From assembly GCA_002869015.1 (NCBI GenBank), contig PKTT01000046.1:1-39649 (forward strand): a stretch of DNA of 39,649 nucleotides, given 5' to 3'. Numbering within the stretch: the stretch's first letter is position 1; each line of letters opens with the position of its first letter. This document shows positions 5,841 through 24,289 of this stretch, in pieces. The translations under genes and the position numbers were made by a program. This DNA comes from Deltaproteobacteria bacterium. GTDB taxonomy: Bacteria; Desulfobacterota; Deferrisomatia; Deferrisomatales; BM512. The notes beneath the pieces were generated by a model. The model was given only the letters and a program-made list of their open reading frames with translations. It did no database searches and was not told the origin of the DNA.

Positions 5841-6587
5841 GTGAGCCAGGAAAAGAGCGCTAAGGAGCGCGGAGGGCCTAAGAAGAGCTCCAGAAGCTAC
5901 TTCACCATAATACATCAGGATTCCGACCTCATAGTCGCGGACAAGCGCGCGGGCGTGCTAACTGTTCCAATCCCCGGCAAGCAGTCGCGAAACCTTCAGG
6001 AGATGCTCTCCAAGTTCCTCTTAAAACAGAAGAGGGAGGCGTTGATCGTCCACCGGATAGACCGCTACACCTCTGGACTGGTGGTCTTCGCCAAGCACAA
6101 GCGCGCCCGTGAAAAGCTAGTGGCGCAGTTTCGCGCCCACACACCGGAGAGAACCTACCTCGCCTTGGCGCGCGGCGAATTCAAAGAGGATTCAGGGACA
6201 TTAAGGCACAACCTCGAGCTAACCCGAGACGGCTTCAGGCAGCGGGTGGTCAAAGAGGAGGGCACCCCAGCCGTAACCCATTACAAAGTGATTGAGCGCT
6301 TCAAGGGGGCTACGCTTCTTGAGGTGAAGCTGGATACGGGCCTTAAAAATCAGATACGAGTGCAGTTCGGCGCGGCGGGGCACCCCCTCGTCGGAGACAG
6401 GCACTACGCGGCATCCGAGGCGGGCGCCAAGCTCCTTGACAGGCAGGCGCTGCACGCATGGAAGCTCGCCTTCACCCACCCGACCAAAAACATTCGCGTC
6501 AGCTACGAAGCGCCTATACCCAACGACTTTGAATACGCCATAAAGTGGCTCAAGAGAGCTTCAAAAACTTCAAAGAAAGAAGGCTAG
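5841..6587 (+). CDS. RluA-family RNA pseudouridine synthase
   Basis: The protein (248 residues) contains the catalytic motif HRIDRYTSG with the nucleophilic aspartate at 74. It also has the family's later motifs: LALARG, KNQIRVQF and HPLVGDRHY. It lacks an N-terminal S4 domain; instead it has about 18 basic residues that could contact RNA. Such enzymes isomerise uridines in 23S rRNA or tRNA, and the exact target cannot be read from the sequence. The start is GTG at 5841. The stop overlaps by 4 bases the stop of the convergent zinc-ribbon gene. Confidence 0.93.
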   Translation: MSQEKSAKERGGPKKSSRSYFTIIHQDSDLIVADKRAGVLTVPIPGKQSRNLQEMLSKFLLKQKREALIVHRIDRYTSGLVVFAKHKRAREKLVAQFRAHTPERTYLALARGEFKEDSGTLRHNLELTRDGFRQRVVKEEGTPAVTHYKVIERFKGATLLEVKLDTGLKNQIRVQFGAAGHPLVGDRHYAASEAGAKLLDRQALHAWKLAFTHPTKNIRVSYEAPIPNDFEYAIKWLKRASKTSKKEG

Positions 6588-7861
6588 AGGGTAGCCCCCA
6601 CCTCAAGGGCGCGCCGGTCGATGGATTGGCCGCTCTCTTTGTGGAGGTACTCCCTCGCCCTGGGCTCAAAGGGGATGAAGATCAGCCGCGCCCGGACGCC
6701 TCTCAGCTCCGCCCCGGCTATCTTTGGCACCCGCCGCTCCTTGTCCGTAGTCATCTCGCAGAGAGCCACCTGAATGGCCTCCATGGCCTCCTTCAGGGGG
6801 AGCCTCACCGGCTCGGAGAGGAGCCGCCCCCTGCCCGGGGTCACTCGATGCTCCTCCTCCGCGAAGAATATTGTCGCCGTCTTGGCGAGCCTTAGGAAGA
6901 TCCTCGCGTTGACCTTAAAGGCGGGTATCAGAAAACCGGCAGCCTCCTTTTCCCACTCAGGCCTGGGCACCTTATAGGGGGCGCACCACCTCAAAAGGTC
7001 CGCCCGGCTCCTAATCCCGAGTTTTTCATCCTCAACATCGATGTGCCAGAAGGGAAAGAGGCGGGAGCTTTCAGCTATCTCGCCAAGTATGGCGTAGGGC
7101 ATTCTGGCGAAGGCATTTCCTCTGGGCCAAAAGGCGCGGTGGCAATGTTCGCAGAGGAGGACCTTGGCATTATGCTCAGGGGGCAGCGCGTGGCCGCAGT
7201 TGGGGCAGTCCAAGGCAAGGAAGCTGAGCTCCTTTGATTTGGGAGCCTCTGCGATCGCCCCCTTAAGCCTCTCTACCTCCTCCACGCTTAGCGAGTGTGC
7301 GCGGCCGCCGGGGAAAGCCTCCATCAGGAGGTGTTTTGAGCCCTCCTCCTTTAAAAAGAATGGGGCGTGGATAATCACCCGCTCCTCACCTATCAGGCGA
7401 GATATGAGGATATCCCCCTCTTCGTTGTAGAGGCGGTCAACGCCGCTCTCATCTGCGATTCTTGAGTGGGCCAGGGTTGCGGCGGGGGTATCGGGGGGCC
7501 AACTGGTGAGGTGCAGGGTGCATGCCTGGGGCCTCACCCCCAGATTCGCGGCGGAATTTATATGCTCGCAGGCGGGCGCGGTGAGGTCTACCAGACCTCC
7601 CTCCACTTTAAAATTTTCCCGATTGACTTTGAAGCGGACACCCCTAAGGCGCCAGTAGGGAAGGTGAAATATACGCTCGGACAGATATTCCTTATCCGCG
7701 GGCATCCTGTAGGAGAGTGGGCCCTCCGGGAGTACGTAGATCGAGCTTTTGCAAAAGCCGCACTCCAGAAGCTGGTCGCCGACCTCGGTATCCACCTCCC
7801 CGCCGCAGTTGGGGCAGGTGCCGGTGGCCGACCACCCTCCCGCTCCATTAAGGTGGCTCAA
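6584..7861 (-). CDS. Duplicated zinc-ribbon protein, partner of the SPFH protein
   Basis: This 425-residue soluble protein has two zinc ribbons: CPNC/CGFC at 16-37 and CPNC/CEHC at 219-240. Each is followed by a similar block. A P-aromatic-W motif comes about 50 residues after the first Cys (LPYWRL, FPFWHI), and a later hydrophobic strand ends in PF (IIHAPFF, LIFIPFE). The protein therefore looks like a tandem duplication of a unit of about 200 residues. The architecture recalls TFIIB-type zinc-ribbon proteins with PFW motifs, sometimes found beside SPFH/YdjI-like genes. No membrane segment or enzyme motif is seen. It starts 9 bases after the SPFH gene, so the two are almost certainly co-translated. 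Function unknown. Confidence 0.8.
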   Translation of the reverse strand: MSHLNGAGGWSATGTCPNCGGEVDTEVGDQLLECGFCKSSIYVLPEGPLSYRMPADKEYLSERIFHLPYWRLRGVRFKVNRENFKVEGGLVDLTAPACEHINSAANLGVRPQACTLHLTSWPPDTPAATLAHSRIADESGVDRLYNEEGDILISRLIGEERVIIHAPFFLKEEGSKHLLMEAFPGGRAHSLSVEEVERLKGAIAEAPKSKELSFLALDCPNCGHALPPEHNAKVLLCEHCHRAFWPRGNAFARMPYAILGEIAESSRLFPFWHIDVEDEKLGIRSRADLLRWCAPYKVPRPEWEKEAAGFLIPAFKVNARIFLRLAKTATIFFAEEEHRVTPGRGRLLSEPVRLPLKEAMEAIQVALCEMTTDKERRVPKIAGAELRGVRARLIFIPFEPRAREYLHKESGQSIDRRALEVGATL

Positions 7862-7870
7862 TACCCCGCC

Positions 7871-9019
7871 CTAACCCTTTACGGGCTCACCGCACTGGTT
7901 GCAGAAGGATGCCCCGGCGAGGTTCTCCGCGCCGCAAGCCGTACAGAAGGTCGCCTTGACGCGCTCGCCGGCGCGCGCACCGCACCGTGGGCAGAACTTT
8001 GCCTTAGGCGGCAGGTTTTTCCCGCACTCTCCGCACTGTCTGAGGACAAGTATCTGGTGCCCGCAATGGGGGCAGAAACGGGCGTCGTCAGACACCTCTC
8101 CGCCGCAGTCAGGGCATCCTTTGGGTGCAACATCTCCGCCACCGGCAGCGCCCTCACTTGTGGATATTGAAGGGCCGAGGAGCCCCGGCATCATCATGCC
8201 TACCCCCATGCCCATACCCATCCCCATTCCCCCCTGCATATTCTGACCGCCCTCAGCGCCCTTCTCCAATGCCATCGCCATCTTCATCTTGACTAGGTCA
8301 TCCAGTTTGCCAGAGACCGCGCCGAGGCGGGCGCGCTCATCGATAGCCTTTTGAACATCGTCGGGGGGGGTTACGGCGTTGATGTACATGGATTTTAGAG
8401 ATACGCCAAAGCGGGAGAGCGCCTCCTCTACGCGCCCGGCCAGCTCGGCGCCCAGCTCATCATACTTTGAGGGCAGGCTTAAGAGGGAGTCCAGCTTCTC
8501 GCCCAGCAGATCATTTAGCTTGGAGACGACTATCTCGCTTATGTAACTCTCCAGCGAATCGGCGCTGTAGCTGGATTTGGTGCCTACGAGGGAGTTTACG
8601 AAGAGCACCGGCTGCACCACCTGAATATCGAAGATGCCGTGGGCTCTCAGCCTGACGAGGCCTAGCTCGCTGTCGCGAAAAGCCACCGGGTCGCGGGTAC
8701 CCCAGCGCATGTTGACGAAAGTTTTGAGGTTTACGAAGTAGACCTCTGCGCGAAAGGGGCTGCGAAGCCCCCACGGGATAGCAAGGATCTTGTTTAAGAT
8801 CGGCAGATTTTTTGTTGTGAGGGTGTGTTGGCCGGGGCCCAGGGCGTCGCAAGCGGTGCCCTCGGAGTAGAAGACCGCCGCCTGAGAATCGCGCACCGTT
8901 AGCTGCGCTCCGAACTTTATCTCCCCCGAACCCTTCTCGGGGATTCGGTGCGCAAGCTCCTTACCGCTGTCGTCAAACCACTCTAATACTTCAAGGAAGA
9001 AAACGTTGTCTGTGCCCAT
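7871..9019 (-). CDS. SPFH-domain protein with C-terminal zinc ribbons (YdjI / 'virion core protein' type)
   Basis: Residues 1 to about 245 form an SPFH/band-7-like domain without an N-terminal membrane anchor, as in Bacillus YdjI. A low-complexity Met/Gly-rich linker follows, around residues 260-285. After it come three zinc ribbons of the CxxC-x(10-11)-CxxC type: CPDC/CPHC, CGEC/CPRC and CTAC/CNQC. In Bacillus the YdjGHI proteins work with PspA in the envelope-stress response; a similar membrane-associated scaffold role is an inference here, and no PspA gene is in the window. The ATG at 9019 has GGAGG five bases upstream. That GGAGG is one arm of a perfect 9-bp inverted repeat, so translation may be controlled. 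Confidence 0.85.
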   Translation of the reverse strand: MGTDNVFFLEVLEWFDDSGKELAHRIPEKGSGEIKFGAQLTVRDSQAAVFYSEGTACDALGPGQHTLTTKNLPILNKILAIPWGLRSPFRAEVYFVNLKTFVNMRWGTRDPVAFRDSELGLVRLRAHGIFDIQVVQPVLFVNSLVGTKSSYSADSLESYISEIVVSKLNDLLGEKLDSLLSLPSKYDELGAELAGRVEEALSRFGVSLKSMYINAVTPPDDVQKAIDERARLGAVSGKLDDLVKMKMAMALEKGAEGGQNMQGGMGMGMGMGVGMMMPGLLGPSISTSEGAAGGGDVAPKGCPDCGGEVSDDARFCPHCGHQILVLRQCGECGKNLPPKAKFCPRCGARAGERVKATFCTACGAENLAGASFCNQCGEPVKG

Positions 9020-9086: not shown

Positions 9087-11582
9087 TTACTTCGCGCCGC
9101 CCCAAGACTCTATCTTTTTACGATATTTTTCAGCGACCTTCATAACCTTCTTCTCCTCCGGCCCCTGCGCGACCATATGCACCACAGGCTGGTCCGCATC
9201 GGGAATTATTAGAATGTAAGCGCCATCCACCTTGACCTGAATCCCGTCGATCTGCTCCCTCTCAAGGCCCTCACTCGCCTCGCTCATCAACCTCATAACC
9301 TGCCCCTTGCGGGCTGGGTCTACGCGGACGACGGTGCGCTTGTAGCACCACTTTGGTATCGAGTCATAGACCTCCGAGAGGTTTTTACCCGCTAGAGAGA
9401 GAAGCTCAAGCAACTTGGCGGCGGCGAACATCGCGTCGGGGGCATGGAGGAAGGAGGGGAAGGCGTAGCGCCCCTCGCCATGGGCGATAAACTCCACGTC
9501 ATGCATCTTTGAGGTGTGCGGCGAGGTAGCCTTGCCCCAGAGGATATCAATATCTTTATCTTCGGCAAGAAGACGCGACTGTGTCACCGGGAGGTATGTC
9601 TTAACCGGCGCGCCCCCCGAGGTGAGCGCAAGGAGCCGCAGGATAACCATCGCGGTCAAGTTGGAGTGGTGAACCCTACCCTGGTCATCAACCACATAGA
9701 GGTACTCCCCTCCCGGAGATATGAAAAATCCCGCGTCCGCCCCCAGCGTGGTGACAATCTTCGAGACCTCCTCAAGAGATTCGCCGCGCTCAAGGGTTGA
9801 GCTCATCAACCTCCGCTCGTCGGGGTGCGAGTTAAGGGAGACGACGCGGCACCCCATGGTGTTCAAAATCTCCGGCAGATAGCTGCCGGTCGTGCCGTTG
9901 CCGAAATCAATGACTACGTTGAAGCGGCGAGACCTCACCGCGTCGGGGTCCAGAGACCTTAAGAAGCTCTCCCTGTAGTAATTAGGCACCTGCGTGAGCT
10001 CGACAATCTCGCCCACCTCATCGTGGGGCATCCTCCTGAAATTCTCTTTAAAGAAGATGCGCTCTATGGACTTTGACTGCCCAGTGTCCATGAGGTTGCC
10101 CTCATCATCGAAGAAGGTCATCTGTATCTGGCCCGCGCCGACCCCCGACTGCTGGAAGTGAATCCCCGCCTCCTCTCCGAAGGTAGAGAGCTTGAGGCGG
10201 GCCACCGGCACCGGCGTCATCTTTATGTCATGCACGTTGATGCCAGTGGAGAGGAGCCCGCCCAGGAAGGCGCGCTTTAGCATCCTGCTTGCCCTGAGGT
10301 AATCCCTGCTCACCAGGACAGTATTTCCGGGGGGCAGTACGGTGCCAAGCGCCGCGCCGACCTTGGTCGCGAACTCCGGCGAGAGCTCGGTGTTGGTCTC
10401 GCCTGTGACCATGCCCCCGGTGAAGATTGACTTCTTCCACTTATCGCCCCAGACGAGGTTAGAGGAGAGGAGCGCTCCACGCTCAATTTCCTTGCCGGGC
10501 CAGATCATAATGTCCCGCTCAAAGGAGGCCCTTGCCCCCACCTTTACCCCGGAGGCGACGACCGCGCCTTTCTCGATGGTAACCCCCTTGCCAAGGGTAA
10601 CCCCATCGCAGAGCACCACATTGTCGAGGATTGAATCCTCCCCCACTACCGAGTCTTTCCAGATAGTTGAGTTTACTACACGCGCTCCCGCCTTTATCTT
10701 CGAGCCTGGGCCGATCACTGAATTTTCCACGGTGGCGCCCTTTGATATCTTCGCCCCCTCTCCCAGGAGGACCCTGCCCCTGATATCTACCTTGGCGGGT
10801 TTTTTGGCAGAGTGGTCGTCAAGATAAAGTGTGCCCTCTCGAAGCTTTTTCGCCTTGCCCTCTATGTCGAACTTTACTTTGCCCTTCAGTATGTCACTTG
10901 CCGCCTCGCGGTAGGAATCAGTGTTGCCAACGTCACGCCAGTAGCCCTTGGCGTTGTAGCCGAATATCGGCACCTCCTCGCGCATGTAGATGGGGAAGAG
11001 GTCCTTCGAGAAGTCGAAAAATTCTCCGGCGGGGATGCGGCTGAAAATCTCCGGCTCAAGGATGTAGATGCCGGTGTTGACGGTGTCGCTGAAGACCTCT
11101 CCCCAGCCCGGCTTCTCAAGGAAACGCTGTATGCGCCCATCGGGGCCCGTAATTACGACACCGAAGGCAAGGGGGTTGTCTACCGAGGTAAGGGTGAGGG
11201 TTACGGGGCCGCCCTTTTGACGGTGGAAGGCCACTGCCTTTTTCAGGTCGAGGTCGGAGACTATGTCGCCGGAGATAACGAGAAAGGTTTCCCCCAGGTG
11301 CTCCTCCGCTGATTTTACCGCGCCGGCGGTGCCAAGGTCTTCATCTGGGATTATGTATGTGAGCTTTACGCCCAGCTGGCTGCCATCGCCAAAGTAATCT
11401 GTTATCACCTCGGGCATGTAGTAGAGCAAAACGACTATGTCGTCGATTCCAGCCGCCTTCATCTGCTTGATTATGTGATACATCATCGGGCGGTTCGCCA
11501 GAGGGACCATAGGTTTGGGAACATCATGGGTCATCGGCTGCAAGCGCGTGCCGAAGCCGCCTGCCATTACGACGCCTTTCAT
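9087..11582 (-). CDS. Mannose-1-phosphate guanylyltransferase / degenerate phosphomannomutase fusion
   Basis: The 831-residue protein has three parts. Residues 1-230 form a sugar nucleotidyltransferase with GGFGTRL and the lysine of VPKPM, plus the metal-site aspartate in VISGDI. Residues about 250-375 are hexapeptide repeats of a left-handed beta helix. Residues about 380-831 resemble the phosphohexomutase fold. In the last part the hallmark serine loop (TASHNP type) is replaced by FQQSGVGAGQ at about 476-485, and the DGDxDR metal loop reads GADAGFFI. Mutase activity is therefore doubtful. Long fusions of this type are known in bacteria and are annotated as GDP-mannose pyrophosphorylases. 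The likely role is activated-sugar supply for envelope polysaccharide. The start is the ATG at 11582. Confidence 0.9.
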   Translation of the reverse strand: MKGVVMAGGFGTRLQPMTHDVPKPMVPLANRPMMYHIIKQMKAAGIDDIVVLLYYMPEVITDYFGDGSQLGVKLTYIIPDEDLGTAGAVKSAEEHLGETFLVISGDIVSDLDLKKAVAFHRQKGGPVTLTLTSVDNPLAFGVVITGPDGRIQRFLEKPGWGEVFSDTVNTGIYILEPEIFSRIPAGEFFDFSKDLFPIYMREEVPIFGYNAKGYWRDVGNTDSYREAASDILKGKVKFDIEGKAKKLREGTLYLDDHSAKKPAKVDIRGRVLLGEGAKISKGATVENSVIGPGSKIKAGARVVNSTIWKDSVVGEDSILDNVVLCDGVTLGKGVTIEKGAVVASGVKVGARASFERDIMIWPGKEIERGALLSSNLVWGDKWKKSIFTGGMVTGETNTELSPEFATKVGAALGTVLPPGNTVLVSRDYLRASRMLKRAFLGGLLSTGINVHDIKMTPVPVARLKLSTFGEEAGIHFQQSGVGAGQIQMTFFDDEGNLMDTGQSKSIERIFFKENFRRMPHDEVGEIVELTQVPNYYRESFLRSLDPDAVRSRRFNVVIDFGNGTTGSYLPEILNTMGCRVVSLNSHPDERRLMSSTLERGESLEEVSKIVTTLGADAGFFISPGGEYLYVVDDQGRVHHSNLTAMVILRLLALTSGGAPVKTYLPVTQSRLLAEDKDIDILWGKATSPHTSKMHDVEFIAHGEGRYAFPSFLHAPDAMFAAAKLLELLSLAGKNLSEVYDSIPKWCYKRTVVRVDPARKGQVMRLMSEASEGLEREQIDGIQVKVDGAYILIIPDADQPVVHMVAQGPEEKKVMKVAEKYRKKIESWGGAK

Positions 11583-11637: not shown

Positions 11638-12018
11638 TTAGTGAGGAACGCCAGCTCCATAGCTTCGTTCCAGAACGCGGGATACCTGATGTTTCAGTTC
11701 ATCAAGGGAGCTGGATTTGACAACGTACGCCTCTGCAAGCCAGGAGGAGAACTCCTCCCGAAAGGAGCTATACGCAGTGGAAAGGATTACCGGCAAGTTT
11801 TCGTAGCGCTTCGATATTTCTTTTAAAATCTGTAGGCCGCTCTCTCCCCTGAGCTTGATGTCAAGAACTACGACGTGGATATTCTCGCTGCCCAGGAGGC
11901 TGAAGACCTCCTCCCCGCACGTCGCCAGATGGACGAGGTAACCCTCATCTTCAAGCTCCAGCCTGTATAGGTTCCGTATTGACTCCTCGTCGTCCACAAC
12001 GAGAACTGAATATTTCAT
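11638..12018 (-). CDS. Single-domain response regulator (CheY-like receiver)
   Basis: This is a stand-alone receiver domain of 126 residues. It has the acidic pair D9/D10, the phospho-acceptor D53 in VVLDIKL, the Ser/Thr switch (STAY, about 80-83) and the invariant Lys 101. There is no DNA-binding or enzymatic output domain, so it must signal by protein contact or relay phosphate. The ATG at 12018 has AGGAGAGG upstream. It stands 55 bases before the GDP-mannose fusion gene in the same direction and may share its transcript. The receiver-first histidine kinase at 15617-16687 is a possible partner, but that is only proximity. Confidence 0.93.
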   Translation of the reverse strand: MKYSVLVVDDEESIRNLYRLELEDEGYLVHLATCGEEVFSLLGSENIHVVVLDIKLRGESGLQILKEISKRYENLPVILSTAYSSFREEFSSWLAEAYVVKSSSLDELKHQVSRVLERSYGAGVPH

Positions 12019-23897: not shown

Positions 23898-24239
23898 TTA
23901 GCCAGCGTGGCAATCCTTGCACTTGAGCTCCTTAACAACACTGGGGCTCTTCTTGTTGTGGCAGCTCCAGCACTTACCAACTTCCTTCTTGTGAGCAGCA
24001 TCCTTCATTGCGCCGTCGTCCTGATGGCAACCGGCACACTTGAAGTCGCCGGAGTCGGCTTTGTGGTGACAAGTTGCGCACTCAGCGGAGGTGTGCTTGG
24101 CATGGTCGAAGGTGACCACATCTTTCTTGCCGAAGTTTGTTACTTTGATGGGGCCGGCAGGCGCATCGGCGGCGATGGCCGCTAGACCGAGACCGACGAA
24201 GAAGACGACTGCTGCTGCGATAGCGGTAAATTTCTTCAT
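23898..24239 (-). CDS. Periplasmic tetrahaem cytochrome c (class III / c3-like)
   Basis: The start is the ATG at 24239 (113 residues), preceded by GGAGG. Residues 1-24 form a Sec signal peptide ending AIA/AD. The mature part has four CxxCH haem sites at 54-58, 68-72, 90-94 and 107-111. Exactly four further histidines (46, 49, 59, 83) are available, enough for bis-His coordination of all four haems, as in cytochrome c3. Such proteins carry low-potential electrons in the periplasm of sulfate- and metal-reducing bacteria, often from periplasmic hydrogenases. The gene appears monocistronic, with its own promoter and terminator. Confidence 0.93.
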   Translation of the reverse strand: MKKFTAIAAAVVFFVGLGLAAIAADAPAGPIKVTNFGKKDVVTFDHAKHTSAECATCHHKADSGDFKCAGCHQDDGAMKDAAHKKEVGKCWSCHNKKSPSVVKELKCKDCHAG

Positions 24240-24289
24240 TTTGACCTTTCCTCCATTGGATTTGTTTCCCTCATACGGGGAACCCACCT

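Follow-up and report, generated by a model that had tools for sequence, protein, structure and literature searches.

A conserved gene pair encoding an SPFH protein and a duplicated zinc-ribbon partner related to YdjI and YdjG

In a 39,649-bp contig of a deltaproteobacterium (PKTT01000046.1; the whole stretch is hereafter called the window), an SPFH gene is followed directly by a gene for a duplicated zinc-ribbon protein, and comparison across the phylum identified the two as a conserved, co-inherited two-gene module. We consider it somewhat probable that this pair represents a PspA-independent variant of the YdjI-YdjG module that has no membrane anchor and probably acts as a sub-membrane scaffold or chaperone. 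To our knowledge, bacterial YdjI-type SPFH proteins have been described almost exclusively as PspA helpers.

Results

The SPFH protein and its zinc-ribbon partner

The two genes, their domains and the genes upstream of them are located in the window as follows:

7871-9019, minus strand: SPFH gene; YdjI-type SPFH (Band_7_1) protein of 382 aa, ATG start.
SPFH residues ~8-233: SPFH core (alignment of 22 homologues and Pfam).
SPFH residues ~220-290: helix and Gly/Met-rich linker (alignment of 22 homologues).
SPFH residues C302-C319, C329-C346 and C359-C376: three C-terminal zinc ribbons (Zn_Ribbon_1, three stretches).
7862-7870, minus strand: intergenic spacer of 9 bp from the SPFH stop to the partner start (gap computed from the sequence).
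6584-7861, minus strand: partner gene; protein of 425 aa, TTG start, a tandem repeat of zinc ribbon plus core with no transmembrane (TM) segment.
7226-7861, minus strand: N-half of the partner (residues 1-212); ribbon C16-C37, 'LPYWR' and 'APFF' motifs, YdjG-related (HMM-HMM).
6587-7225, minus strand: C-half of the partner (residues 213-425); ribbon C219-C240, 'FPFW', 'IPAFK' and 'IPF' motifs (HMM-HMM).
9087-11582, same strand as the SPFH gene and upstream of it: nucleotidyltransferase/phosphomannomutase-like enzyme.
11638-12018, upstream of that enzyme gene: single-domain receiver.

The SPFH protein matches the Pfam family Band_7_1 (PF13421, E = 6.9e-61) over profile positions 8-210 of 211, and zinc-ribbon models match it three times, with the corresponding six CxxC motifs being kept in 71 of 72 orthologues. 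In its core and its C-terminal ribbons, it belongs to the YdjI/Band_7_1 kind. It shares with Bacillus subtilis YdjI the PF13421 type, the lack of a TM segment (maximum 19-residue Kyte-Doolittle (KD) mean of 1.37), a C-terminal zinc ribbon, and a YdjG-type gene alongside, but differs in having three ribbons, a TM-free partner, and neither PspA nor YdjH. Flotillin/NfeD pairs likewise consist of a two-gene operon for an SPFH protein and a partner, for which a scaffold or chaperone role has been considered; however, the hydropathy of the window protein reveals no flotillin membrane segment, the NfeD model does not match the partner, and the pair does not fall among the Flotillin/NfeD pairs. The predicted structure of the SPFH protein, based on a shallow alignment, has a mean pLDDT of 37.5. 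Three further Band_7 proteins are encoded in the host genome, two of them by adjacent genes, and a search with the SPFH alignment found no relatives in viral contigs.

The partner contains two CxxC...CxxC ribbons, at residues 16-37 and 219-240, one heading each repeat in an alignment of 21 homologues. Since all eight cysteines are 99-100% conserved among 78 homologues, these ribbons are not a product of chance. The two halves are homologous to each other (HMM-HMM, P = 97.9), and after removal of the ribbons the match persists with P = 90.6 and a score of 44, whereas 20 column-shuffled controls scored no higher than 21. No TM segment was seen in the window partner (maximum KD mean of 1.15); no full-length fused partner exceeds 1.72, as against 2.19 and 2.54 for YdjG-like controls. 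The mean pLDDT of its predicted structure, calculated from a 2-row alignment, is 30.5, and the protein has no match among plasmids.

Regarding the function of the partner, an enzymatic activity might be suspected from the near-invariant D92 and R71 and the frequent R110/K316, which could be catalytic. Nevertheless, only generic zinc-ribbon models and no known enzyme family matched, no conserved His/Asp/Glu/Ser cluster was found, and the internal repeat together with the Cys/Pro/Trp pattern fits a structural role, which leaves this reading very improbable. Among the 78 homologues, the near-invariant non-Cys positions are mostly Pro, Trp, Gly, or Phe, the pattern that would be expected for a scaffold. 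Also unlikely is a role of the partner as a regulator that binds nucleic acids or is linked to the ribosome, acting through TFIIB/eS27-like ribbons and held at the membrane by the SPFH protein. While its ribbons resemble those of eS27, L37Ae, and Rpo12 (with weak E-values), and a DNA-binding role has been proposed for the YdjG ribbon (PMC9239133), such likeness is common among zinc ribbons in general, searches of the partner revealed neither a helix-turn-helix nor any other DNA/RNA-binding family, and its conserved non-Cys positions are mostly non-polar.

The SPFH gene and the partner gene are inherited together

A profile search identified the partner, a few weak matches included, in 98 of the 297 genomes sampled from the phylum, which represent 77 of 199 genera. 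Loci were fetched from about 95 sampled genomes and searched with profiles of both proteins; six further loci were cut by contig ends. In 80 of the 84 genomes with a readable flank, the partner is immediately preceded by an SPFH gene in the same orientation, with a median gap of 17 bp between the two profile matches. Furthermore, the pairwise identities of the two proteins correlate across 72 genomes (r = 0.88, against 0.22 for the highest of 999 permutations), and the partner is the faster-evolving of the two (median identity of 29% versus 60% for the SPFH protein). The SPFH gene and its partner are, in short, a conserved and co-inherited two-gene module. Four carriers without an adjacent SPFH gene (G035, G036, G052, and G087) count against this module model. 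In G052 (L127:4965-7453), the partner lies, as judged by eye, directly 3' of a D-Ala-D-Ala-ligase-like gene, with no SPFH gene nearby.

The gene content of the locus agrees with a preliminary description made from the sequence alone, which had listed an SPFH protein with three C-terminal ribbons, a partner of duplicated make-up with two more ribbons 9 bp downstream, the lack of a PspA or transmembrane partner (no PF04012 match), and a position behind a "GDP-mannose enzyme" and a single-domain response regulator. Both points on which it had let its proposal depend also turned out in its favour, namely the adjacency of the two genes in related genomes and the lack of a match between the second protein and any known enzyme family. 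Its view of the pair as an uncharacterised two-gene module held in part: the pair is real and conserved, but the N-half of the partner belongs with YdjG (see below), in keeping with the relation to YdjGHI that it had suggested from Bacillus.

The same description had derived a "different partner set" from the genes upstream. In the window, the sugar-nucleotide enzyme gene does adjoin the pair on the same strand with a gap of 67 bp, which could speak for a scaffold of GDP-mannose or polysaccharide synthesis tied to this enzyme and the receiver. However, in a neighbour tabulation in which ORF choice is approximate for GC-rich genomes, the gene (nucleotidyltransferase/PMM) directly preceded the pair in just 2 of 46 genomes, each belonging to the family of the window, and G002, from the same family, lacks it at that place. 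The other neighbours vary, and nothing beyond the pair is common to the genomes; LpxC, found downstream in 4 of 51 genomes, matches in number the four loci of one family (f17) and was read directly in one of them. The sugar-nucleotide enzyme and the response regulator therefore reflect the local synteny of a single family; the proposed partner set does not hold, the GDP-mannose/response-regulator linkage is largely refuted by comparative synteny, and a role of the pair in polysaccharide synthesis is highly unlikely. Moreover, the NCBIfam matches of the putative "GDP-mannose" enzyme stay below their cut-offs.

Several further observations concern the surroundings of the pair. On the downstream side, the partner stop overlaps the end of a convergent pseudouridine synthase gene by 4 bp (6584-6587), and pseudouridine synthase is the downstream neighbour of the partner in four scanned genomes. 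Elsewhere in the window, 23898-24287 encodes a small cytochrome c that carries several CxxCH motifs and is probably secreted. Genomes on the early branches of the SPFH tree have, as the next gene upstream of the SPFH gene, one for a helical protein without a TM segment, 164-199 aa long in the cases read (L079, L080, L081, L082, L117-L119, L121, L124, L126, and L129-L132). This protein has no Pfam family over cut-off and is possibly a third component that was lost in the lineage of the window. A coiled-coil gene considered as a PspA candidate was rejected, as it has no Pfam match to PspA and did not turn up in the window's own genome. Scanning the window with Rfam models and for tRNAs gave no matches, and no stress-regulation element was found in it, promoter-like matches being at chance level. 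PADLOC likewise produced matches at chance level only, and a role of the pair in defence is unsupported.

The pair is not a phage-shock operon

In Bacillus, YdjI and YdjG act together with PspA and YdjH (PMC8581546), and the window shares with the pspA-ydjGHI operon the combination of SPFH and zinc-ribbon protein as a unit. The operon differs in that its PspA and its TPM-type protein (YdjH) are missing from the window locus as well as from the window's own genome. In this 95% complete assembly, neither PspA (PF04012; control positive in 9 of 14 known genomes) nor a TPM/YdjH-type protein (PF04536; control positive in 8 of 14) was found, and the same holds for G001 and G003, which belong to the family of the window. 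The window pair is not a phage-shock operon.

Alternatively, the pair could be a normal YdjGHI/phage-shock component whose PspA and TPM are encoded elsewhere in the genome. While the working together of these proteins in Bacillus and the occurrence of TPM in 15 of 24 carriers among 59 relatives, unlinked where coordinates were checked, are consistent with this, PspA exceeded its cut-off in only 2 of the 24 (G008 and G046), a distribution that argues against a general need for PspA/TPM. Together with the failure to find either protein in the three genomes of the window's family named above, this makes such an arrangement quite unlikely.

Split genes link the partner to YdjG

For comparison with YdjG, we used a set of YdjG-like proteins encoded behind SPFH genes in plasmid records of Vibrio, Paracoccus, Comamonas, Tsukamurella, and Enterococcus. 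These records have the same order of SPFH gene and YdjG-like gene, with a TPM gene behind in Enterococcus. The N-half of the partner matches these proteins with P = 97.5 over 184 columns (HMM-HMM). As the match of the core alone, with the zinc ribbon removed, is weak (P = 31.5), the link between the partner core and YdjG rests on a bridging gene found in family f17.

In this family (G024, G061, G096, and G124), three separate genes, called A, B, and C, lie behind the SPFH gene. Each encodes a ribbon and a core; A and B additionally encode a C-terminal hydrophobic TM hairpin (KD up to 2.9), while C has no TM segment. Gene B matches both YdjG (P = 98.4, E = 4.6e-15, 263 columns) and the N-half of the partner (P = 99.6), and gene C matches the C-half (P = 99.9, E = 2e-32). 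Thus, the window partner corresponds to B joined to C, minus the membrane hairpin of B, and profile comparison indicates that its N-half is homologous to the YdjG family through the bridging genes.

Membership of the partner in the YdjG family is partial. Like YdjG-type proteins, it has a zinc ribbon that precedes a core carrying '[LY]PYW' and 'LPVW' motifs and is encoded directly 3' of an SPFH gene. YdjG itself has been described as having two ribbons, a YpeB/NTF2-like domain, and a TM segment (PMC11237479). Whereas YdjG thus combines two tandem N-terminal ribbons with one core and a C-terminal TM segment, the window partner is arranged as ribbon-core-ribbon-core and has neither the tandem ribbons nor the TM segment. 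Since its N-half belongs with YdjG, the partner is of the same kind as in YdjI-YdjG, rearranged and without the membrane anchor. A classic YdjG was not found in 99 relatives by a search with a single divergent query, which may miss relatives.

The SPFH tree does not settle the order of fused and split forms; G035 and YdjG hint that the anchored form came first. The G035 genome carries, without an SPFH gene beside it, a split A-B-C triad (L120:6922-9210) whose reading frames overlap or abut. The SPFH protein of this genome (L176:4647-5765) lacks zinc ribbons and instead ends in a 'YFLAINGQQTGPF' tail. Two plasmid loci are also worth recording: in Vibrio coralliilyticus (L057:2063-8124), the SPFH-YdjG pair lies ~900 bp from a gene cluster including a TIR-domain gene, and in Paracoccus (L060:3689-8407), genes for TelA (toxic anion resistance), DUF2927, SPFH, and YdjG-like proteins follow in a row.

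Discussion

Our analysis is consistent with an autonomous two-gene module that would be derived from the YdjI-YdjG part of a Bacillus-type pspA-ydjGHI system. B. subtilis YdjI is soluble and forms foci without PspA; its recruitment to the membrane depends on two membrane proteins, YdjG and YdjH, and it has an effect on membrane fluidity (PMC8581546). SPFH proteins assemble into ring- and dome-shaped structures (PMC12624060). By analogy with such solved proteins, the soluble YdjI-type protein of the window would be expected to build a ring or dome that lies on the inner membrane, its three zinc ribbons presumably facing outward as docking modules. The partner, as two putative YdjG-type units of zinc ribbon plus core that match the separate genes B and C without the TM hairpin, would most likely bind the SPFH oligomer as a docking subunit. 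The resulting assembly may serve the quality control of membranes or proteins during envelope stress, as a peripheral scaffold or chaperone that works independently of PspA. That the two proteins form a complex, oligomerise, touch the membrane, and act in stress is here predicted from their relatives, as is the envelope link proposed in the preliminary description, which we infer from YdjI and YdjG (PMC8581546, PMC11237479).

Neither protein has a TM segment, and the membrane attachment of the predicted scaffold, which the model leaves unexplained, counts against it. Going further, one may tentatively propose, as a rather doubtful extension, that the soluble double-YdjG protein replaces the anchors YdjG and YdjH, giving a widespread, self-contained SPFH system without PspA or any integral membrane protein, in which the SPFH oligomer would be peripheral or cytosolic instead of anchored in the membrane.

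While the YdjI and YdjG kinds are already known, no description of an anchor-free, PspA-free SPFH-YdjG variant was found in the open-access texts searched, and the fused, anchor-free variant appears to be new. If our preferred reading of an anchor-less YdjI-YdjG variant is true, the presence of such a pair in dozens of genera would mean that the SPFH-YdjG unit has its own function. As a minimal two-protein system, it would make the roles of the zinc ribbons and of YdjG directly testable, and the split and fused forms would provide a natural series in which to study the role of the membrane anchor.
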